Shown here piece after piece: positions 11,377 through 42,600 of a stretch of DNA of 64,000 nucleotides; within the stretch, counting starts at the first letter, position 1, and each line of letters starts with the position of its first letter. The position numbers and the translations under genes are program-made. The DNA is from Daphnia pulex (lineage: Eukaryota > Arthropoda > Branchiopoda > Diplostraca > Daphniidae), in the NCBI RefSeq assembly GCF_021134715.1, contig NC_060024.1, forward strand, positions 9,920,001 through 9,984,000, in the 5' to 3' direction. The notes below the pieces were generated by a model. It saw nothing but the letters and a program-made list of their open reading frames with translations. It had not been told where the DNA came from and did not search any database.

Positions 11377-14300
11377 ATGAAAATTCTACTCGTCATCAGT
11401 AAGTAAATTACAGACTAAAAAAATTAAAAATGTCGATCGAAAAGAGAAATTCTCTGAGTGCTCACAAACTATTCCAAGGGCGGCTTATCTCGTGCTGAAA
11501 GCTACAGAAAAAATAAGATATGAGATGTGGCAATCGCTCGTTCCAAGTGCCGGCCGGCGTCTTAAAAATGAACGACGTGAAAATAACTGAAAATTTGACT
11601 TAAAAAAATCTTTCTTTCTCTTTTCTTTTTACTTACTACCAATCACGAATAGCGATATTTGCGGCAACGGCTTGGGCAGCCGATCCATGGCCAAACCGCA
11701 TTCCCGACAACTTGGCGTTATGTTACGTAAACAAAACCATCAGCGACCAATTCCGCCGGATGCCCGCATCCATAGAGAACTTGGTAGCCCTCATCCGAAA
11801 AGTCGAAGCTCATCCCGACACCGCTCTATGGCCGATTGGAAAGATGGCCAGCACACTAATCCACAGGTACCGTCTCATCCTTTAACGCCAACTTTAAAAC
11901 AGATAGACCTTTTTTCTTAAATCTGAAAATTTAAAAAAATATTTAATACGTAAAGATTTCGTTACGATGGAATCATTGACATTCCTGATGGTGCTGGACC
12001 CGACGTTGTTCCGGTCGTCAACGAACGCGCTGAAAGTGACAAATACCGCCTCCAATGGAAGCTAGTACCTGGAACAGCTTCCGACTTCCCGGAATCCTCA
12101 TTGACCATGGAAGAAAAGGTAAACAAAATTTCAACAAACAAAAAATAAATATTATCCCGTAGATTTTGAGGCACAAAAATGTAGGCGACTCATTTTTATA
12201 AAATAAAATCCAAAAAGAAAAAAGAAAAAAAAAGGAAAAAGAAAAAAAGAAAAGGAGAGATAATGCTTGTTCTAAACTTATCTACTGTCTGTGCTGTGCG
12301 TGTGTAAAGACTATGACAAAGATTTGACCTCACAGCCATGCATTTTCGTGTAGGTGTTTGTTCAGCCCCACCTGTAAAGATAATTATTCTTTTACTAGTC
12401 GATTGCGAAGACCAAGTGCCGTATTACGCTACAAACCTAGAATTATAATCCTTTTTCTATTTCTTTTTTTGTGTGAACGTTGATTAAAGTGTTCACTGCA
12501 CTGGATGCTATCTTACACGGTTAACCACACGGCGAGTGCAGAAAAAACCGCACCACCTGTTTCTCGGTCCTTCGCCAACCCCCAGCAGCCAGCCGCCGAT
12601 TCTGAACCTGACCATTCTCATCACGTGGAAGAAGATGTCGTAGAGAATGAGAATCAACCTGATGAGTAAGTATTGAAATTGTTGACGACGGACACTCTAC
12701 CTAGACTGAGGACGTATTCAATTTATAATAGGGATCTCGTGGAACCGGAGCACGATCACGAAGGTGTTGAACATGAGGAAGAGGTGCCAGTTGATGAGCC
12801 GGTAGATGAGCCGGTAGATGAGCCAGTAGATGAGCCAGTAGATGAGCCAGTAGATGAGCCAGTAGATGAGCCAGTAGATGAGCCAGTAGATGAGCCAGTA
12901 GAGGAGCCAGATGTGGAACTGACAGAAGATGTACCAGAAGATTTACCCGAAGACACGGAAAATATCTTTGGAGAAGATACCGTAGAGACTGGGGGTGAAG
13001 ACTACGGCCCAGTTGATGACAATAGCGAAAGTGAATCAGACGGCTGGAAGCGTAAGCGTCGCCAAACTGAAACCTTGGCCGCTCAGCCAATGGAAGTCGG
13101 TATCGTTCACACCAAGTATGGCACAGTAGCAGCTGGCCCGGTCCTGACTGGTATCGCTGCCGGAAGTGAACCTCAAAGCGCTCCGGTAATCTCCATTCAA
13201 TTGCATCAAACGATTCATTAACATAAAAATCTTCCTTTACTTTTGTTGTAGTTGAAAGAGCTCATCAAAGATCCGCAAATGGAACTTTCGCCAAGCTCAC
13301 TGGAGAGGGTTGTTCAGAGTATTTGGGTGGCTACGCTCGCAGGTATTTTTTCGTTCAATCCATACAAAATCTTTTACTGTTCCACAATCCAAAACGTCGT
13401 CATGTTTAGGTGATATTGCACAAACTTCTCTTCTGAGAACACCCAAGAACCTTCCAAGTTTCGGACCACGAGGACAGTGGAATTGCACACTGTGCCCGCG
13501 TGAGTACAAGCTGGAAACCAGAGAACATTCCATGTTGACCAACGCCGAATTTTATGGTGGTGTTGATGGTGAGAATCAGAAAAATCTTGAACCTAGACAA
13601 AACGAATGTAACATTTGTTAATATTGGCATTAGGTTTGCTGATGGCTCAACGTATGGCTACCTGGGATTCGAGCAGCTATTTGAAACTTTCGGCCGTCCT
13701 GGAAATGTACTATTCTGAGACTGGTATCCATGGTGACTCAAAGTTCCGCGCTTGCAACCGCCTCTACAATTACAGAGACTCAGATATTGTAGATCAGGCC
13801 ATGCTCAAAGAACAGGTGCGCTGAATGCTCTGCAGTTAAAAAAAAAATTCAACTTTAATTTAATTGATCAAATTAATTGTAGTCTCTTAACGCTGCTTTG
13901 GTCCTGTACTCACGCGGCATTGACGGCGCTCCGACTGTTCTTCCCGGAGTTAAACCTGCGGATCAAATCGGCCAATATGTCAACACAACCATGAACGAAA
14001 TTAATTCTTTTTTGGACCAATACCTAAGTAAATAATTTTTGTTGGTTTCACGGATAATTTTCGGGATTTTAAACTTTTTTTTTTTCTTTGCAGGCAACTC
14101 AAACATCGTAGATTTCACCCAGTGCAAAGGACCTTACGCCCTATCGACGGCCGAAGCTACACCAGCCACTTACACTGATCTTACCTTCGTATTCGATCAA
14201 ATCGCGGATGCCAAAAGCCTTTACAGCCAGAAAGATCTCGCTGCGTAAGTCTGAATGTCTTTGAAACAAATAATTACAATCATAATACTAAAACATGTAA

Positions 14301-30474: not shown

Positions 30475-32740
30475 ATGCCACCTGTTGAAACTATGGAAGT
30501 GGACAGCCCCGTTACGGAGGTTGAAGTGGAAATTACGAAGAAAGACGTTAAGGATGTTGATACAGCAACCACAGAAGGTATGGATTGTAAACTTGTCTGG
30601 AGAACAGATTAAAATCTTTTCAAGTTCTTCTGCTTTTAAATTCCTAGATTTTAAAATATATGAAAAACTTAAAAATTACAATTGTATTGTCATCTGTTAA
30701 ATGAGACTAGTTAAATTTAAATTATTTGTTATAAGATTTTCTGGTTTCCAATATTTACGTGCAAGGATAACATGCTGGTGAAAAAAACTTACAGTCTCTT
30801 TAAACTTTATTACAGATATCCGTGAACAACTGAGGCAAGTAGAAAAGTCTGTTATAACAAAGGAGCCTCGATTTGTTTTCCGAGTACTGAGGTCGTTGCC
30901 TAACACTCGTCGTCGACTGAATCCCGCTGTATTACGTCGCATCATTCTTCACAGTTATAGCTATTCGATAAAGGAAAGAGACAACTTGCTTAATCTAGTA
31001 GGAGGGGATGACTCTCTTGATATTGCATCTCCAATCCAAAGAACAAGAGCTCCCAAACAGGGGACGTCTTCTCCTTTACCTGAAGTAAATATATCTCGGT
31101 CAAAATTCGTTTTTAACCTTTGCTGACTGAAGTTTATGTAGGTTGACGTATACATCCATATGTTAGTTCTTCTTCATTGTATCGATAATAAGCGCATTCA
31201 AGAAGGAGTTCTCTGCTCAGACCAATTAATGCAGAAAATAACAGCTCAAAATCGGCGTACTTTGGATTTATTGGCTGCTCGTTGCTACTTCTATCATTCT
31301 AGGACGTACGAGCTTGCTGGAAAGCTGGATTCAATCAGAAGGTAAAAATGAACTAGCTAAAAATACCTTTCAAAATATCTTAAATTATTATTATTATTCT
31401 AGCTTTCTGCATAGCCGGCTACGTACATGTACTCTCCGAAAAGATTTTGAGGGACAGGCAGTGCTGATCAATTGTTTGCTGCGCAACTATCTTTTCTACA
31501 GTCTGTATGATCAAGTAAGTTTTCATTATTTTATTTTTATTTATTTTTCATTAGATTACCTAATAAGTCGTTTTCTAGGCCGACAAGTTGGTCTCAAAAT
31601 CTGTCTTCCCAGAATCTGGAAGTAACAACGAGTGGTCACGTTATCTTTACTATCTTGGAAGAATCAAGGCTATTCAATTGGAATATTCGCAGGTGAGAAC
31701 ACACAATTATTATTATTATTATTTTAATCTCCTAATTGTAACATTGTTTTGTTGATTTTAGGCTCACACTCATCTTTTGCAAGCCATTCGGAAAGCGCCC
31801 CAGCATACAGCAGTTGGTTTCAAACAAACGGTTCAAAAGCTTTTGGTAACAGTCGAGTTGTTGATGGGAGACATTCCTGAACGGCATATTTTCCGTCAGT
31901 CAACAATGAGACACGCCTTGGCTCCATATTTTCAAATGACGCAAGCCGTCAGGTTGGGAGACATACACAGATTCAATCAAGTGTTAGAGAACTACGGAAA
32001 AACTTTCCAGGCAGGGTCTTTCAAGCGAATGTTCCCCCTCCAAATTATATAATTAACTTTCTTATTTATTTAGGCTGATCATACCTATACTCTTATAATC
32101 CGTCTACGCCACAATGTTATCAAGACTGCGATTAGAGCCATCTCTTTGTCGTATTCGCGCATTTCTCTAGCTGACATAGCCCACAAGCTTTTGTTGGACT
32201 CGGCCGAAGATGCTGAATTCATTGTTGCCAAGGCCATTCGTGACGGAGTTATCGAAGCTTGGTTAGACCACGAAGGAAAATTTATGCAGAGTAAGGAGAG
32301 CATTGACGTCTACAGCACCAAGGAGCCTCAGCTGGCTTTCCACCAGCGAATCACCTTCTGCCTTCAGATTCATAATCAAAGCGTCAAAGCTATGCGCTTC
32401 CCTCCCAAGGCATACAACAAAGATTTGGAATCAGCAGAGGTAACCCCAAACTAATTTCGTTCGATTAATTGCAGGAAAAAATGAGTTGATTATAAGAAGC
32501 AATATTGTGAATACAACGGCGTTACTCAATATCGAATTCCTTGGCGTGAAACCAAATGCAACTGTGTAATTTAAAATCTGAAACTGTAGATCTATCAGAC
32601 ATGAATTATCTGCGTTTTATGTATTGGGCTATGGTAAAAAACAGATTAAATTTTTCTTATAGGAACGTCGCGAACGGGAACAACAAGATTTGGAATATGC
32701 GAAGGAAATGGCTGAAGAAGATGACGATGGTTTTCCGTGA
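30475..32740 (+). CDS. PSMD3: 26S proteasome regulatory subunit PSMD3 (Rpn3)
   Basis: Eight exons: 30475-30577, 30816-31084, 31142-31341, 31403-31514, 31579-31692, 31762-32010, 32074-32439, 32663-32740. They give 496 residues in phase, near the usual length. Conserved stretches include [39 protein letters not shown], the PCI-domain sequence [65 protein letters not shown] and the acidic end EEDDDGFP. Rpn3 is a scaffold subunit of the proteasome lid. Intron 6 (32011-32073) begins with GC rather than GT; only this junction restores the conserved [15 protein letters not shown] sequence. AATAAA occurs at 32809-32814. Confidence 0.95.
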
Positions 32741-32848: not shown

Positions 32849-34107
32849 TTATTGGTCATTAATCCCTGGGAGAAAATACTGCAAACTGTAACTGTCGCTC
32901 AGAAAATTCAAATGCATCAATTTTGATTGCAGCACATCTATAAGATCGAATAGAAATGAGTGTCGGTTTGTGTTTAGTAAAAGATGTAATCATATTGTTT
33001 TATACCACAAACGACTTTTTGTGGATTAAGCTGTTCATGAGCTAGAAAATTTGATAGACGTTTCAATTCGATGGTGACACTAGCTTCATCTTCCTCTATT
33101 AAAACGTTACCGATAATTAAAACTATGTGGAAATGCTACAACCTTAAAGTCTTACTTTGCTTTTCAACGTGTAGATGATCGAAGTGTGAAGTTACGGAAA
33201 CGGCTTCAGTTTCAACAGTTAGAGTAAGTAATCCTTCGGATGTGACGTGAAGAGTGGCCATATTGGCAAGGTTTTTCATGCGTTCAATAATGCTTTTCAT
33301 TAAACGGAGCTGAGGCATATGAACTGAAATCTAGAGATTAATGGGTTTTATTTTAAATATTTATAAAGATATAAGAAAAATATCTAAAAATAATTACATC
33401 TGGATCCACAACTTCTGGCTCAACATAGTCATTCCAAAGCCTTCTAGGTACCAAATTCACAGGGATGTCGTGAACAACTAATCGTGAATGATTAGAACCT
33501 GATGGCTGAAAGTATACATGAGAAATTTTAATGCATATAAGGAGAATAACAAGTCAGTCAAGGAGCCAATCTCAAGAATACCAAGTCAATCTCAAAAGTT
33601 AGACACGGTGAAGAAAGCTTCTTTGTGAGTTTGATTTTTACTGATTTTGCAGTTCCTGATACTTTCAAGGCACTCAATGTTCTTGCAACATTTTCTATTA
33701 ATTAAAATAAGAAAATTTTGAATCTAATAGTTTTAACATTGTTTGTACACTTCACCTGCAACAAATTCAAGGTATATTTCGTTATCAACGGTACTTAAAC
33801 CTTCCATTCCAAATTCTGAAAAAAAGTGACCCTCATCAAGAGTACACCAAATAAGTGGAGAGGTTGAAATAGTCTGGGATTCACGGACAATGAAATACAA
33901 GTCGTTGGTAGTGATCCTTAGAATGCATGATTTCCCAAGTTTCGTCATGCAACCTAAAATGCCTGTAGTTTAAAATGTGAAGATCATTGATGACTTCGAC
34001 TTATGAAATTTTAATCCTAGAACAGCAATGAATAATAGAATTCGGAATTGCGTACCTATGAATTGCTTAATGCAGTTAGGATCAATCATTTTCCCACGAA
34101 ACTTCAT
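32849..34107 (-). CDS. HUS1: HUS1 checkpoint clamp subunit (9-1-1 complex)
   Basis: Seven minus-strand exons, 34107-34056, 33953-33756, 33694-33582, 33505-33398, 33330-33156, 33095-33006 and 32937-32849, join in phase to 274 residues against about 280 in vertebrates. Family landmarks are present throughout: MKFRGKMIDPNCIKQFI at the start, IWCTLDEGHFFSEFGMEG, DNEIYLEFV, HDIPVNLVPRRLWNDYVEP, MKSIIERMKN and the terminal SYSLQYFLPGI. HUS1 forms a PCNA-like ring with RAD9 and RAD1 that is loaded at DNA damage and supports ATR signalling in the nucleus. If the last intron is not removed, reading ends early in CGIKQYDYIFY and loses the final strand, so the seven-exon model is preferred. Head-to-head with the zinc-finger gene. 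Confidence 0.93.
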
Positions 34108-34499
34108 TGTGAAAGTTGAAATGAGATCTTGAAACAGACGAAAAAACTTGAACAATAATGAAGGAGAAAATTTTGAACAGACGAAATTCCCCGGCTTGAT
34201 TTGAGAATTGAGACTGCCAAATTAAGTTTAAAGCATTCTATATTTTTATTATTTTTCACTAACTTAATACAATTAAAAATTTATTTCTATTGAAATATTC
34301 ATAAATTTAATATATAATTTTAAAAAATTCTTTCCTTTTTATTTCAATTTCAATTATTGCATAGGGAAAATTTGGCAACAATGTTTTGCCTTGGCTTGAT
34401 TTTTTCGCATTCCCCATACGTTGTTTGTTTTCCTCGGCAAGAATTTTGCAGTTGTGAGTTTTATTGGATTAATATAAAAATCAAGAATCAAGAATCAAG
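34108..34499. promoter_or_regulatory. Bidirectional promoter region, HUS1 / zinc-finger gene
   Basis: 392 bases between divergent start codons. A/T-rich, no TATA box stands out. Confidence 0.45.
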
Positions 34500-37400
34500 A
34501 TGACGCTTTCCAGTGATCTGGAAGTTGATTGTTGTGAAGAAGAATTGAGTGAAACTCAAGTTAGCTTCTTTACAAATGCTATGATGGAATATGAAAAAGC
34601 CATGTCAGAAGCCAACCAGATTAAAAAAGGTAAACTATACATTAAAACTAAACCGGCAAGTTAGTTCAGTTTTATTTTTGTCAGAAGGTTCATCAGTCAC
34701 AAAAACTGGAAATGTTTGGTTGGTGAAGTCTACATATCAGGTTAAAGTTCGGAACCCTGTTGCACCACCACCTCAGTTACCAACACCAGCGGTTCAGCAG
34801 ACTATGCATAGTCCTCGAAGTGGACCTACTCAATTTTTAATTAGACCCCCAATAATTCCTTCTGTTCCTCCTGTTTCCACACTACCAACAAAAATTTTCA
34901 GGCCTCTGAATCAGTCTATAGCTCTGTTACCTGCTGCAGATGAAACTCCAGCTGTTGATGAAACTCCATTTCCAGCATCACAATTGCTTTCACAATTTAC
35001 TGCTACTACCGCAAAGAAACAGAAAGCTGCACCATGCATACAACCTGGCCAAGTTGGTCAAACTGTTCAAGCTATTCCTCAAACTATTCAAGTAGCTCAG
35101 GCTGCCCAAACTGCAAAAGTAATCCAGCTTTCTCATACTGTAAAACCTCCCCAGACTGTTCAAACACCAAAAGTCACACAAGCTGTTCAAGTTGCCCAAG
35201 CTACTCAAGTTGCTCAAGTTACTCCATCAATCTCAGGTGGAAATAACAAAAGAGCTAGTAGCAATCAACCTGTTCCCACGCAAAAGCCAAATAAGCCATC
35301 AGAAACATCACAAGCTCCTGCAGTTACTATCCCAACAAGTCAGCTAATGACGATCTTGGCGGTTCCTTCAAATGCCACTCCAGCGAAAAATACTGCGAGT
35401 GTGCCACCACCTGAAGACACAAAAATGCTGTCTAAAACGATACCTTCTCTTTGTGTCGTTGTTCGTCCGGCAAATTCAGTTCCCGACATCGTAAATGCCA
35501 AGAAACGAGAGGCACTAGGTTGGTTGAGTATTTTATTTTTTTTTATTTTATTTTTTTTTGTGCATGTTAAAAAAATTATTTCATTCGGTTTGTCTTGCTT
35601 TTTAGATTCGTTCGTAAAGAGCCGTTTAGTTCTCGATCCTCGTCGATTTGCGGAATGGTTAATGCAGGTTGGCCTTTTACGAAGTCAGCAATTCGGCACT
35701 TGTCGAACACATTTTAACGCGACATCAACCCCGGTTCCATTACAACTGCGAATGTACGCAGAAGAGAATAAATTTCCATTCAGGTAAAAATTTAAATAAG
35801 ACGTGAACAGGTTATTGAATTGTGAATTAAATCCATTGAACATTTAGTGGGGGCTATGTTTGGATGACAAAATGTTGCGATCGCAACTTTGTTTCGATAT
35901 TTCGTGAGTCATTATTTGAGGATTCTACCCAGTCCCCAACAGTTTTGCTAAAGCTCATTTATCACTGGGCTTGCCAAACAACCGTTTCGAACGTAGTTCA
36001 GTGGGTGAAAATCGATCATGTCTTTCTCCGCTTGTTCTATGGCATGTTACGGAGTGTTTGCACGGTACGCGTTGCTAGTTATTTATATTTTGTAAATTTT
36101 CATATTTATATTTTATACGAATGTAGGTAGAAGTGCATTCTAGCACTCCATTGTTCGGCTGCAAAAATGGCCGCGTTGAGGTTGGAGTGATTTCATTAGG
36201 TACAACATCGACGGATGGAAAGCGACGTGACGTTAAGGTGGAAGTCCTCGGCGTCTATGATCAAGAAACAAAGAAATTCCGACTGCGGGCCTGTGAACCA
36301 ATCGCTGGGGATACGCGTAGTCGAGCTCGATTTACCAAAATTCTAGAACCCCTTCCAAAGTAAATGAAAATATTGCATCCCCAATTGCTATAATCTAATT
36401 TTTACCATTCCACGTTTTGTTTAGGTGGGTGAATCAGAAAGCCATTATCATGACAGATTTCACTGTTGAACGTGCGGCACTCGAAGAACTAGGATTTCGT
36501 CATGTAGTACAGAAAAATTTAAATACGGTTTCTGTTGATGACCGCCTAAACAATCGTACCATTATGGAGTACCTCCGCAAAACGGTGCCTAAGGTGTTCC
36601 AGAATACCCTATCACTTCTTTCAACTGCTACGATCCAGCAGTTCTTGGATGAACTAGTGTGGCGTGAAATCAACGGGCAATCATCATCTGATGCTTTCCA
36701 TAATATTATTCGCGATATCAGCGCTCAAGCTCGTGCAGAAACCGGAATGCCATTAGTCAAGTGAGACATTCTATCTTAATTTTCGTATATTGTTATTTCT
36801 TTGATCAAAAAGAGGGAAACCATGCAATTTTCTGCTTATATAACTTTTCCTAAAAGCACTATTTTGTGTTGGCCAGGCGTCTACCTATCGTGTCAGTCGA
36901 TCCATTCAAAGACTGGAGCATTACTCAAAACAAACCAAATCAAACCTCTCCAAATGAAGCCACGAGCACGGTAGCTCTTAAGCGCCCAATGGTCTCAACT
37001 ATTAAAGAGAGCGCCTCAACGAGTGGGGCAAGTAATGCAAAGGAAATGCGCACTGTATCGTACTACGCCACTATGTTGGATTTAAGTAAAGGAGTAGCCA
37101 TTCCGGATCCGGAGGATTCAGAAATGACAAGACCTCATCTCCAATGTCAGGTAGTGCTCTTTAATGGTCTTCGCGTTTTAATTTATCCCTTAAAATTCAC
37201 GTTTACTTCGTTTAGCATTCGGAATGCAAAACAGTGACGCATACTAACTTGGAAATGATGGCACACTTGAGGCAACATTTGGTGAAAGACGCAGTGACTG
37301 ATGGAGATGATTGGACGGAGCATTGTAGTTATTGCTTGGATACTTTAGCTACTGCAAGTCAGAAAAAAGCGCACGAAGATAATCATCACTTGTTTCTTTC

Positions 37401-38511
37401 GACATTTAAGGTAAGCATAAGATTATTATTGGTATGATTTCAAATGTTAATCAATGATCTCCCTGGTCTATAGTCTCAAATGTCGAGGGAAGATACTGCT
37501 TCCGTTAAAGATCTGGTGTGTTTAATTTGCCACGAAAAGTTCGCACAATTTCGCCAGTTGGAGCAGCATTTGGAGAAGACGCATGTGTACTGTGAGATGC
37601 CCTATCGCTGCCGTGTCTGTCATTTCCAGACTTCAGCCCACTCGCAACTGATCAACCACTTCTATGAAAATCACAAGAATAGTTTACATTTGTTGTGCCC
37701 TTTGTGCCTCGACACGTTCGATACAAAAGGAGACAATGAAGCAAAGGCATTCGATACAGGGCATATGCAGTACTTGCAGCATCTGAAAAACCATCTACCG
37801 TTGACAAACGGCCATCCTTGCAAGCGTTGTGTTCTGACTTTCCAAGAGTACGATCAGTTACTCTATCACGTTCGTACTGACCACCTCTCGGCCATAACAA
37901 ACATACACGTGCGGCCTTTTAGTTACACGATCATCAAACCAGTTGGTTCCGCAGGCGGCAAGAATCAAGTGGTGGTCTATTCCAACTCATCAAATACTGG
38001 ATTAACGTCAGCTAACCTTGCCTCATCAAGTTCTCCTAATTCGGTTGCTGGTGCCGGAATGAAAGCAAGTCTTAAAACGTACTCTAAAGAAGTTCAGGAG
38101 ATACCGAATACAAGTGTGGCCCGTCGACTTCCGAACGTAACTCTGACAGAGGAGATGCTTCTTGCCGCCAACCTATGCATTGAATGCAAAGAGCCTTTAA
38201 AGAAGAAAAACCATTTCACCGGGTACATGTGCTGTACTTTGTGTCGCTTTTCAACTTGCTGTGGAATCGCTATGAAACTTCACCAGAATCACGTCCATAA
38301 AGGCCAAGTTGGTCCAATCCTTGGTATGTATCTGATTTTTCAAGGTTTACTTCCCCTACTTTGTTTAACCAACCAATTTGTGTGCGCAGGTTCTGTTTAT
38401 GCTTTAAGTGAGACGGTGAAGTGCAAATGTGGATTCTCTAGCAGCAGCGGTCTTGATTTGGAACGTCATATGGTTCAGTGCGGTGAGAAGTCAGTTACTG
38501 TTGCGTCGTAA
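34500..38511 (+). CDS. POGZ/ZNF280-like zinc-finger protein with embedded IS1595/ISXO2-type transposase domain
   Basis: Ten exons: 34500-34629, 34685-35518, 35606-35783, 35848-36064, 36127-36359, 36425-36760, 36877-37150, 37216-37410, 37474-38323, 38390-38511. They give 1122 residues in phase. Order: a short acidic N terminus; a 270-residue Pro/Gln/Thr-rich low-complexity region; a domain at about 325-690 that follows IS1595/ISXO2 (Merlin-like) transposases from end to end (GYVWMTKCCDRNFVSIFRES, LLKLIYHWA, RVEVGV, KAIIMTDF, NNRTIMEYLRKTVPK, FLDELVWREI); then about eight C2H2-type fingers at about 800-1115. The finger block with EMPYRCRVCHFQTSAHSQL and LLCPLCLDTF matches the POGZ/ZNF280 type. 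Of the expected DDE residues, the first Asp is Gly (VEVG), the second is kept (MTDF) and the third is unclear, so the domain is probably not catalytic. Likely a nuclear chromatin or DNA-binding protein; this is inference. Confidence 0.85.
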
Positions 38512-38696
38512 TTCAACCATTATTCATCGGGGATTAATTACAAGGGCTTATAATCAAGATATTGCATAGGACATTTCTGGTATCTCAACTAGAATTTGTA
38601 CTGAATATTTCCTTTTGGCCATGTTCTATTTGTATCCCATTATCAAGAAATACATTTCCTGATTTGTGTTATACATCCATTTGTATTCAGTACATA

Positions 38697-39638
38697 CAGT
38701 GGGTACCTAAAGTATCCGTACGGCTGAGAGGAGCAGTACGGAAAACGCGTTTTTCAAAACGCTCCCATAAATTGAATTCTCGTTGGAATGCAATAAAATT
38801 TTTTTGTAAGGTTAAGATTAGGGTGGGGTTTCATCTGATTTTTTTTGGGAATTTTTCAACAACGCGATATGTGGTTTTTATCGCGTTGCGAAAGTATCCG
38901 TACGGCCGAGAGGCCTAGTAGGGAAATGGGCTTACTTTGGAGGCCTCTTATTCGGTAAATAAGTAACATTAAAGGGTGGGAAAGTTCTTAAAAAAAAGAG
39001 CTGCATTAGCTCTATATGTGATCATAAGATCACATTTTTTAAGTTTCATTTATAGTAATGAAATCAAAAATGAAAACACGAATTATAAGTTTTCCGTTTT
39101 CTTCCCCTCGATTCCCCATCACCAGTGTTGCCATGTCCCAAAATCTCTTTCTTCCCTTGGACGGAAGAGGGAGAAAGAGAAAGGGTAAATATCTTTTTAT
39201 ATGGCAACACTGGTGATGGGGAATCGAGGGGAAGAAAACGGAAAACTTATAATTCGTGTTTTCATTTTTGATTTCATTACTATAAATGAAACTTAAAAAA
39301 TGTGATCTTATGATCACATATAGAGCTAATGCAGCTCTTTTTTTTAAGAACTTTCCCACCCTATAATGTTACTTATTTACCGAATAAGAGGCCTCCAAAG
39401 TAAGCCCATTTCCCTACTAGGCCTCTCGGCCGTACGGATACTTTCGCAACGCGATAAAAACCACATATCGCGTTGTTGAAGAATTCCCAAAAAAAATCAG
39501 ATGAAACCCCACCCTAATCTTAACCTTACAAAAAAAATTTATTGCATTCCAACGAGAATTCAATTTATGGGAGCGTTTTGAAAAACGCGTTTTCCGTACT
39601 GCTCCTCTCAGCCGTACGGATACTTTAGGTACCCACTG
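38697..39638. mobile_element. Palindromic Tc1/mariner-type non-autonomous element (MITE)
   Basis: A 942-bp inverted repeat with exact ends CAGTGGGTACC and GGTACCCACTG, flanked on both sides by TA, the target duplication of Tc1/mariner elements. Arms of 438 bp (38697-39134 and 39201-39638) face each other across a 66-bp loop. I find only about two mismatches between the arms, so the element looks young or maintained by self-pairing. Each arm holds two copies of AAAGTATCCGTACGG, at 38709 and 38891 on the left, about 182 bp apart, like the IR/DR arrangement of some Tc1 elements. There is no transposase; a mirrored short frame in both arms is just the palindrome read twice. It inserted 185 bases after the zinc-finger gene's stop codon. 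Confidence 0.92.
38792..38797 (+). terminator. Possible polyadenylation signal supplied by the element
   Basis: AATAAA inside the left arm of the palindromic element, 281 bases after the stop of the zinc-finger gene. I see no AATAAA or ATTAAA between the stop codon and the element, only a weaker AATACA near 38648. The element may therefore provide the 3' end of that transcript. Confidence 0.35.
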
Positions 39639-39640
39639 TA

Positions 39641-42600
39641 GGTATAACTAATGTCCATGGATATGAGTAATCACTAACTTGGTAGCTACTAACTAGGTCC
39701 TCAAGCGAAGCATGAACATTTTGAATCATGAAATTCAGGTAATTTGTTTAGCATGTGTTAGAAGCTCTTTCGCGCACCGTCAAGGAGCTAACATGGGGAG
39801 AAAAATGCGTGGCAGCCAACTTACAAAAAAATCATACCAACAACAATAATAGATGATCCTTGTCGATCGTGTTGCAGACCCGTCGTGGTCGTCGTCGTGC
39901 CGATGTCTTTTTGGTTCAACTAGGCCGCATCCTCTCAGTCATTACCTAAATAGAAAAAAGAAAAAAATAATGAGTTAACATCACAATACTAATGAAGTTA
40001 TTCAACAACTACACTAACAGTACATATGTAGTAACGACGATCTGGTTTTCTAGGCATCCAGATGATTCGAGCTGAACGGGTTGAATATGTCAACACCACG
40101 TTGATTTCGTTGGGCAGAGACCGTGTCGATGACAGCCAACGGGTAAAACGATACTAAAAGATGATTCACTTTGGTGATCCCTTATTAATTCAGCGGTTGT
40201 CGTTTGCCACCAAGAGCTCCAAGGCTCCACTTCTACCTAAATTGAAAAATCAGTAACGCACACCGTTAACTCAGGGGTAGAAATTATTAAAGAGCCATGA
40301 CTTGTACAGAACCATGATGAGAAAAGACAACAACGTCAATCATATTGGTAATCGCCGTCTAGTGTAAAAATTTGCAATCTTTTGTCTTTTTGAACCGGTC
40401 AGCTTTTGAGAAATTTACCAATGCGAGTGAAAACGAGAAAAAAACAAACAGAAAATCTGTTAAGAAACATTTAGTGAAATTTTCAACCATACCAGTTTTT
40501 GAAATACGGTGAAAAATAACACTTGACAACCTGATGTTGTATTTTGCAGCATCAATGATGACATTATGGGGTAGATATAAAAGTAGGTAGCTAACTAGAT
40601 TTTATGAGTGACCATCGAGATTTCGCAGCTCGTTGATGTGCTTATAAAAAGGGGCCATTACATTTCAGCTCTCCAACTTCCGTAGTCGAATGCGGCAGCT
40701 GTGATGGGATTGAAAGAGCCGGCAAATCCGTCCGTAGAAAGTCACCGATATTGGTTTTTTATTCACTTTTACGTCCGTTTCTTCTTACATAAATATATAG
40801 CTTGTCGTAGACTTGCCGCAATACCATCAGATACTTTATACTTCCTCTCTCTCCGCATACGACAACGACCGGATAAAGACTCGCTAGCTCTTCTTACACG
40901 CGGGAGGATTGCTCCAACTCTTTTCCCTCTGTCTGTGCAAAGATAAAAATAAGACTGAGGGAGGGGGGGGGGCTATTCCCAGCCATTTTGTTCTTTCTTC
41001 CTTGACAACCGCCACTCACATTTCTTGTCTTTATCGTTCATGTGTCACCGATACAATCGCAAGTCTTATAAGCTTATTCCCCTTGATGAGGTCTTTACTC
41101 TTTTTCTTTTATACTGCGCGGGCAAAAGATTCCACGTGGAACCATTAAAAAGGATCCTCCGCCACATGGAGAAAAAGAAATCTAAATCTTTTGGCAGATG
41201 TTGCAGGAGGAGAAATTTGCGGGATTCATCACACTAATAACGACTCCCGCGTGCATAAGAGAAATGCATCGGGAAACACTTGCTGGAAGGAGCTTATCGT
41301 ACTAGTTCAATGCAACTTGGGTCCGTTTTCATAGAGACTTTTTCCTTGTTGCGAAACAGACGGATTTGACCGCACAATAAATGAAAAGAATCCTCTGATG
41401 CTTGTACAGCAGAAAAACCTTGATGCGGGGCTTTGGCTATTCTCGTCCGCCGACGAGACCTGATTGGTTCTCCCTTCGAGACGCGTCGTTTTCCCAGTCT
41501 ATCGATCGACAATATTGGGTGAAATCAAAGGTGGACAGCGCAGGGCATCCATCCAAAAACTCGACGATGGAATAAGATTGACGTCAATAAAATAAAAATA
41601 AAAAAAGAAGAAATTACTTCCGGCTTTCATCAGTAGTGACACACAGCAGAATGACCAAAGTTACGTAACAAGTCCCAGCGCCTTTTTAAAATTAATCCCG
41701 ATAAATAACGAAAGAGCCTTTGAAGTTGTCCCACGCGAAATCAATTGAGGGACTTTTTGACGGATGGTCGTACACAATTCCAGCCAAAGGTACTAAATAC
41801 TCGTCCTGATCCTTTTTTCGGGATTGGATTTGATGACAACGTTCGTCATATCGAATCCGGTGGAAAAGCTTTTTAGCGTGGAGAGTCGATCCCGAATAAG
41901 TACAGCATCCAACATAAGTGCAGCAGGTGGCCTGAAAGCTAAATTGATGCCGACGCGGACGTATAGACGTCGGCGGGAGAGAAAATGGGGCCGCTCTAAG
42001 TCGAGTGCTGCTCTCTCTCCGTCTCCTTGAAGCGATTCTTGAAATAACCCGCCCAGCAGAGGAGCGGTACTGGCAAGGGGGAGATGGGGGGGATCGACGA
42101 GTGAACATGTTTTTCTTTCTTTTATTTTCTCTCCTAGCTGCGCAATCGCAAAAGTGGTCGCCAACTTAGTACAGTAGACACACAGACAATAAGTACAAAG
42201 AGATGATGCTGGTAGTCGGCGAAAATGAAGAGAACGTTTCTCATTTTGATCGAGTTAATTTGATTCGCTACTCTCTCAATAAATCCATGTCGACTCGGTT
42301 GACTCAGTTGACGTACCCGAATGAAATAGTCAAAGTCTCGCAAGTGCTCCGATGCTTCCACATAGTGATCTCTCAGATGTAACGAACCGTCATCGCTGCT
42401 GCCTGGCTACCGTTTCACCCGCAACATCTATCCTCTCCTGATTGCTACCGCCGTGTCTTTCTTCTTCTTCTTCTTCTATTCTTTTCATCCTTTCCTTTAT
42501 TTATCCATGCACTTAAAGAGACTGTTGTAGCCAGCCGCCATGTCTCAAAAAGATCCTCGCAATATCTAACCGTATACACGAGCCAGACACACAGAACGTG

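Follow-up and report, generated by a model that had tools for sequence, protein, structure and literature searches.

A probable Merlin-derived transposase domain in a POGZ/Row-family zinc-finger gene of Daphnia pulex

Gene content of the locus

The window analysed here is a stretch of 64,000 nucleotides of the Daphnia pulex genome. It contains, on the + strand at positions 34500-38511, a gene whose ten joined exons give a single open reading frame of 1122 residues plus a stop codon, as had been described in an initial annotation of the sequence, which reported exons intact over 1122 codons. The nine introns are all of the GT-AG type, measure 55 to 116 bases and have a G+C content of 28.8%.

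In the gene model, exon 1 (34500-34629) carries the start codon and encodes an acidic N terminus (residues 1-43). Exon 2 (34685-35518) encodes a low-complexity linker rich in Pro, Gln and Thr (residues 44-321), for which the Pfam scan returned no match. According to the gene model and the profile alignment, a Merlin-like domain begins in exon 3 (35606-35783) with the N-terminal start FAEWLMQVGLL. Exon 4 (35848-36064) contains GYVWMTKCCDRNFVSIFRESLFEDS, the counterpart of the Cys/SVRTG segment of Merlin, followed by a helical segment starting with LLKLIYHWA. The first part of the catalytic core is encoded by exon 5 (36127-36359), with RVEVGV at the place of the Merlin VEIDE, and the second part by exon 6 (36425-36760), with IIMTD and then the C-terminal FLDELVWRE segment. 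After a linker, the finger region begins in exon 7 (36877-37150) and C2H2-like fingers continue in exons 8 (37216-37410) and 9 (37474-38323), the latter including a double finger of the zf-POGZ type at 38170-38286. Finally, exon 10 (38390-38511) adds a Cys-containing segment and the stop codon. All these exons are on the + strand. The strings LLKLIYHWA, RVEVGV, GKRRDVK, IIMTDF and FLDELVWRE quoted in the initial annotation are present. On the other hand, its 'GYVW..C..C..N' was a misreading of GYVWMTKCCDRNFVSIFRES, in which the two Cys are adjacent, and its 'VEV.....G..KRRDVK' has the right residues with a spacing that is only approximate.

Over residues 1032-1070, the double finger scores 46.9 bits for a cut-off of 27 (E 3.7e-12) with the Pfam model zf-POGZ, described as 'POGZ-like double zinc finger'. 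In the genome searched (133,188,837 bases in 13 contigs), this model has no further match up to E 1. Because the double finger passes the Pfam cut-off, the domain of exons 3-6 is placed within a POGZ/Row-family gene. The parallel to POGZ proposed initially is thereby refined: the gene itself belongs to the family and is not a distant parallel. A loose C2H2 pattern matched six times between residues 733 and 1074, and Pfam zf-C2H2 gave only 13.8 bits on the protein for a cut-off of 25.2. Neither a pogo DDE nor a CENP-B-type domain is among the six Pfam families listed for the full protein. In its run of fingers and its acidic N terminus, the protein also resembles human POGZ. In addition, the protein contains two strings of the PxVxL type, a kind of motif that HP1 can bind; these candidate motifs are PTVLL (residues 411-415) and PNVTL (residues 1019-1023).

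The gene is head-to-head with a Hus1 gene on the - strand (33136-34221; PF04005, 9.3e-14 for 33136-33330). The likely Hus1 start codon, near 34107, was placed by position only, in an exon with no Pfam match; it would be about 390 bp from the start of the POGZ-like gene, suggesting a shared promoter. Exons of the proteasome subunit PSMD3/Rpn3 (31762-32454, + strand) precede Hus1. Further upstream, a 12-base tandem array (12786-12910, 10.4 copies) lies in a + strand open frame of 183 residues and reads as repeated PVDE. On the other side, a 954-bp snapback element (38691-39644) starts about 180 bp past the stop codon. Its two 444-bp arms are 99% complementary and 66 bp apart. With 40 of 101 candidates scored, 35 near-full-length copies were located genome-wide, counting this one, and 16 of the 35 are 99-100% identical; given such copies, the element has probably been active recently. 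That it could be part of the POGZ-like gene was rejected, as it has dozens of genome copies.

Remote relationship of exons 3-6 to Merlin/IS1595 transposases

Residues ~338-633 align collinearly with IS1595/Merlin transposases. The Pfam profile of this family, PF12762, which the initial annotation had named among the means of checking its proposal, stays below its gathering cut-off of 27 bits: it gives 17.6 bits on the full protein, 19.3 on residues 322-643 and 21.1 on residues 454-643, a cut of our own choice. The best E-value on the domain is 3.5e-4, also sub-threshold. As a positive control, a joined Merlin sequence of this genome reaches 78.3 bits. Out of 24736 Pfam models, PF12762 ranks first both for the domain in isolation and for its C-terminal part, and the Pfam scan lists no other transposase family for either. 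At an E limit of 0.001, exons 3-6 are not among the PF12762 matches listed for the whole genome, and an NCBIfam scan gave no match.

Because PF12762 remained below its cut-off, a broader profile of 40 rows was built. It combines 35 IS1595-type proteins (32 from prokaryote genomes and three, L024-L026, from viral-contig records) with five Merlin rows from this genome; 39 frames had matched the Merlin profile and 35 were kept once duplicates were removed. For the own-genome rows, 14 loci were read, three of them repeating a place; they cover 11 places and 12 of the genome's 20 PF12762 matches. The rows used are L001, L003, L005/L008, L007 and L014, the other loci being left out. The Merlin copies of this genome (G000, L001-L008, L014-L019) are interrupted by intron-like gaps.

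With a first version of the broad alignment, the profile search scored the domain at 17.3 bits, the highest of 2000 shuffles reaching 6.5; with fuller Merlin rows, the 40-row profile gave 21.7 bits and a best shuffle of 5.4 among 2000 (hmmsearch). Two hhalign comparisons gave 42.2, with 60 shuffles reaching no more than 24.2 (Prob 74.8%), and, for the 40-row profile, 41.4 versus 23.8 in 60 shuffles (Prob 71.9%), 0/60 being as high in each. In each hmmsearch shuffle test, scores were reported for 1288 to 1694 of the 2000 sequences, the rest being below the reporting limit. The 21.7-bit match is one unbroken alignment covering residues 62-312 of the 322-residue domain. The Merlin/ISXO2 plan that had been read by eye in exons 3-6 thus exceeds chance.

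The signal is distributed unevenly between profiles and parts of the domain. Against the broad profile, the C-terminal part scores 36.9 versus 18.5 in 60 shuffles (hhalign), and the N-terminal part taken by itself is not clearly above its shuffles, of which 3 of 60 (hhalign) and 9 of 2000 (hmmsearch) are as high. Against four own-genome Merlins, the N-terminal 140 residues match over residues 17-117 with 12.6 bits versus at most 6.8 in 2000 shuffles (hmmsearch; 24.9 versus 22.6 in 60 shuffles with hhalign), and 48 of 60 shuffles are as high as the C-terminal part (hhalign). For the whole domain, the same four Merlins give 11.3 bits versus 9.5 in 2000 shuffles, barely above them (hmmsearch), and 25.0 versus 20.1 in 60 shuffles with a Prob of 3.9% (hhalign). 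A profile of the five own-genome rows only is too shallow for hhalign (0.1%).

Pairwise alignment is weak. Global z scores are -0.3, -0.9, 2.7, 6.0 and 3.9 against the five own-genome Merlin rows and range from -1.3 to 6.9 against the 35 other proteins, reaching at least 3.5 for only 8 of these 35. Since nine of the same 35 proteins score z 10.5 to 29.3 against one Merlin row, this failure reflects the divergence of the domain and not the method. Among solved structures, an E limit of 10 yielded 55 sequences for the protein, the best with E 0.01 and none of them best-aligned in residues 322-643; the Merlin profile retrieved no structure within an E limit of 1. No viral-contig relative was confirmed in searches with the domain or with exon 9.

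Structure prediction was made on single exons only. The exon 5 model, of low confidence (pLDDT 47.6), shows three successive strands, with the Gly of RVEVGV in the first; such an arrangement is expected at the start of an RNase-H core. The exon 6 model, also of low confidence (pLDDT 55.2), consists of helices only and has IIMTD as coil, at a position where an RNase-H-like core is expected to have a strand.

These low-confidence models, the sub-threshold Pfam score and the weak pairwise scores would all fit a host domain of another origin that happens to match the IS1595 profile. Such a fit without common descent is nonetheless improbable: none of the 2000 and none of the 60 shuffles reach the profile scores, a single collinear alignment of 250 residues runs from an N-terminal segment through the core into the C-terminal one, and no other Pfam family fits the domain on its own as well as PF12762. 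Overall, we judge from these sequence comparisons that the relationship to Merlin/IS1595 is remote but real, and that it extends along nearly the whole transposase.

Catalytic positions, reading frame and copy number

At the site of the first catalytic Asp, the domain has Gly473 (36184-36186, + strand), as the initial annotation had noticed in RVEVGV; 37 of the 40 aligned transposases have Asp there. The Glu that follows this Asp in 35 of 40 relatives is a Val. The second catalytic Asp is retained as Asp542 (36456-36458, + strand), a position occupied by Asp in 40 of 40. At the third catalytic column, where 31 of 40 have Glu, mafft places a Met, and a possible third catalytic residue, Glu579 (36567-36569, + strand), is adjacent, one column off. 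Hence, the 40-row alignment does not give a complete D-D-E triad: the catalytic columns read Gly, Asp, then Met with Glu beside it, which makes the enzyme very probably dead, as far as can be read from its residues. Endonuclease or strand-transfer activity might in principle persist through the remaining acidic residues, given the second Asp and the Glu adjoining the third position. We regard this as most improbable, with the first Asp replaced by Gly and the next Glu by Val.

Exons 3-6 occupy exactly 35606-36760, with AG/GT borders throughout and in frame with the remaining exons. They total 964 nt, so that a transcript lacking them is out of frame downstream and no in-frame skip exists. The proposal that domain and fingers share one reading frame is therefore upheld by the exon phases. 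Across the 320 domain codons tested there is no stop codon, versus 19 in each of the other two frames; shuffles of these codons contain 17.6 stops on average, and 0 of 20000 are stop-free. Because the domain is too diverged for pairwise alignment with most Merlins, the open frame suggests long constraint.

Used as a genome query at E up to 10, the domain returned four matches, which are the four exons of the gene itself, and no second copy. Elsewhere in the genome, PF12762 matches 20 times, and 12 of these matches contain stops. Convincing terminal repeats are absent: 22 inverted pairs (minimum length 14) were found in 33800-39800, of which six bracket the domain. These six are 14-18 nt long and 83-93% complementary, their arms lie in exons, in T-runs, on the side of Hus1 or in the repeat element downstream, and they look like chance pairs. 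No introns common to the domain and the Merlin copies, which could be a sign of the donor, were seen by eye.

Could exons 3-6 form a transcript of their own, or be a transposon remnant that sits in an intron of the finger gene and was wrongly joined to it? The phases fit with all exons joined and the omission of the 964 nt breaks the frame. In addition, these exons have neither a stop, nor convincing terminal repeats, nor a second copy in the genome search. Such an arrangement is thus highly improbable.

Origin of the fusion and comparison with known systems

We consider it probable that the locus carries a single-copy host gene of the POGZ/Row family, predicted to act as an HP1 adaptor, whose middle third is a dead domesticated Merlin (IS1595-related) transposase. 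A Merlin transposase would have joined the gene long ago, between the low-complexity N-terminal region and the zinc fingers, and its frame would have remained open while the catalytic site was lost. The fingers and the transposase-derived segments are predicted to bind DNA and to dimerise, and the C-terminal POGZ-type double finger to recruit HP1. The protein would thereby tether HP1 complexes to chosen promoters or transposon-derived sites. Of the domesticated, dead transposase in a zinc-finger protein described initially, the Merlin relationship, the lost first Asp, the frame shared with the fingers and the lack of a second copy are observed. We infer the loss of cutting activity, together with purifying selection, DNA binding, dimerisation and HP1 recruitment.

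Fusions of host genes with transposases are a known route to new chromatin regulators. The DDE domain of POGZ is of the pogo type and is located after the HP1-binding finger. Genes of the POGZ/Row family may have captured transposases in two animal lineages, from superfamilies that are not related to each other: of the pogo type in vertebrates and of the Merlin type here. We put this idea forward tentatively and hold it a little short of evenly balanced. Alternatively, the domain could be an old, ordinary part of many invertebrate POGZ/Row proteins, fused before the arthropods or earlier and lost or replaced in vertebrate POGZ. Great age would fit both the very large distance between the domain and its own genome's Merlin rows and the introns that do not coincide, by eye, with the gaps in the Merlin copies. 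This possibility, which we find rather unlikely, concerns timing and overlaps the domesticated-Merlin reading: the domain would still be Merlin-derived, and what would change is the account of a second, parallel capture. The degree of surprise in the fusion depends on this choice between a novelty of crustaceans and an ancient component of Row proteins in invertebrates.

If two such captures took place, the Daphnia gene would, as far as the open-licence literature searched shows, be the first animal host gene described as derived from Merlin, and this HP1-adaptor gene would be a place where transposases have been captured repeatedly. With two captures, why POGZ keeps a transposase domain would become a comparative question, namely what a DDE fold of any origin contributes to an HP1-tethering finger protein. 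Among the matches listed from the open-licence literature, in the portions available, none describes a Merlin-type domain in POGZ/Row or another C2H2 protein. Daphnia pulex is listed with a Merlin family in the available part of PMC2884549.

Merlin domestication is no more than suspected, in protists, according to the accessible text of PMC8101967, whose main text mentions neither Daphnia nor crustacea. As described there, the possible protist domestications resemble the Daphnia case in retaining a transposase frame without terminal repeats; in contrast, the Perkinsus case retains its DDE motif. The fingers described in the same text are C-terminal ZZ-type fingers in copies of one transposon family and the bacterial Zn_Tnp_IS1595 domain. 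With Merlin/IS1595 transposases themselves (DDE_Tnp_IS1595), the Daphnia domain shares the collinear plan, the second Asp and a C-terminal segment resembling FLDELVWRE. Unlike them, it lacks the first Asp, a second copy and convincing terminal repeats, and lies within a multi-exon gene of 1122 residues.

On the host side, the Drosophila Relative of WOC (Row, CG8092) is paired with POGZ in a table (21.1; PMC10948934, available in part) and recruits HP1c, according to the part of PMC9078007 available. Row is thus comparable as an arthropod protein paired with POGZ and an HP1c recruiter, a likeness drawn from these partial descriptions. According to the available part of PMC7673123, vertebrate POGZ uses its HP1-binding finger for repression, and its other domains include a DDE transposase domain and a CENP DNA-binding domain. 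Like POGZ, the Daphnia protein combines a POGZ-type double finger, a run of C2H2-like fingers and a transposase-derived domain in the same chain. However, its domain is IS1595/Merlin-like and precedes the fingers, whereas that of POGZ is pogo-type and follows the HP1-binding finger.
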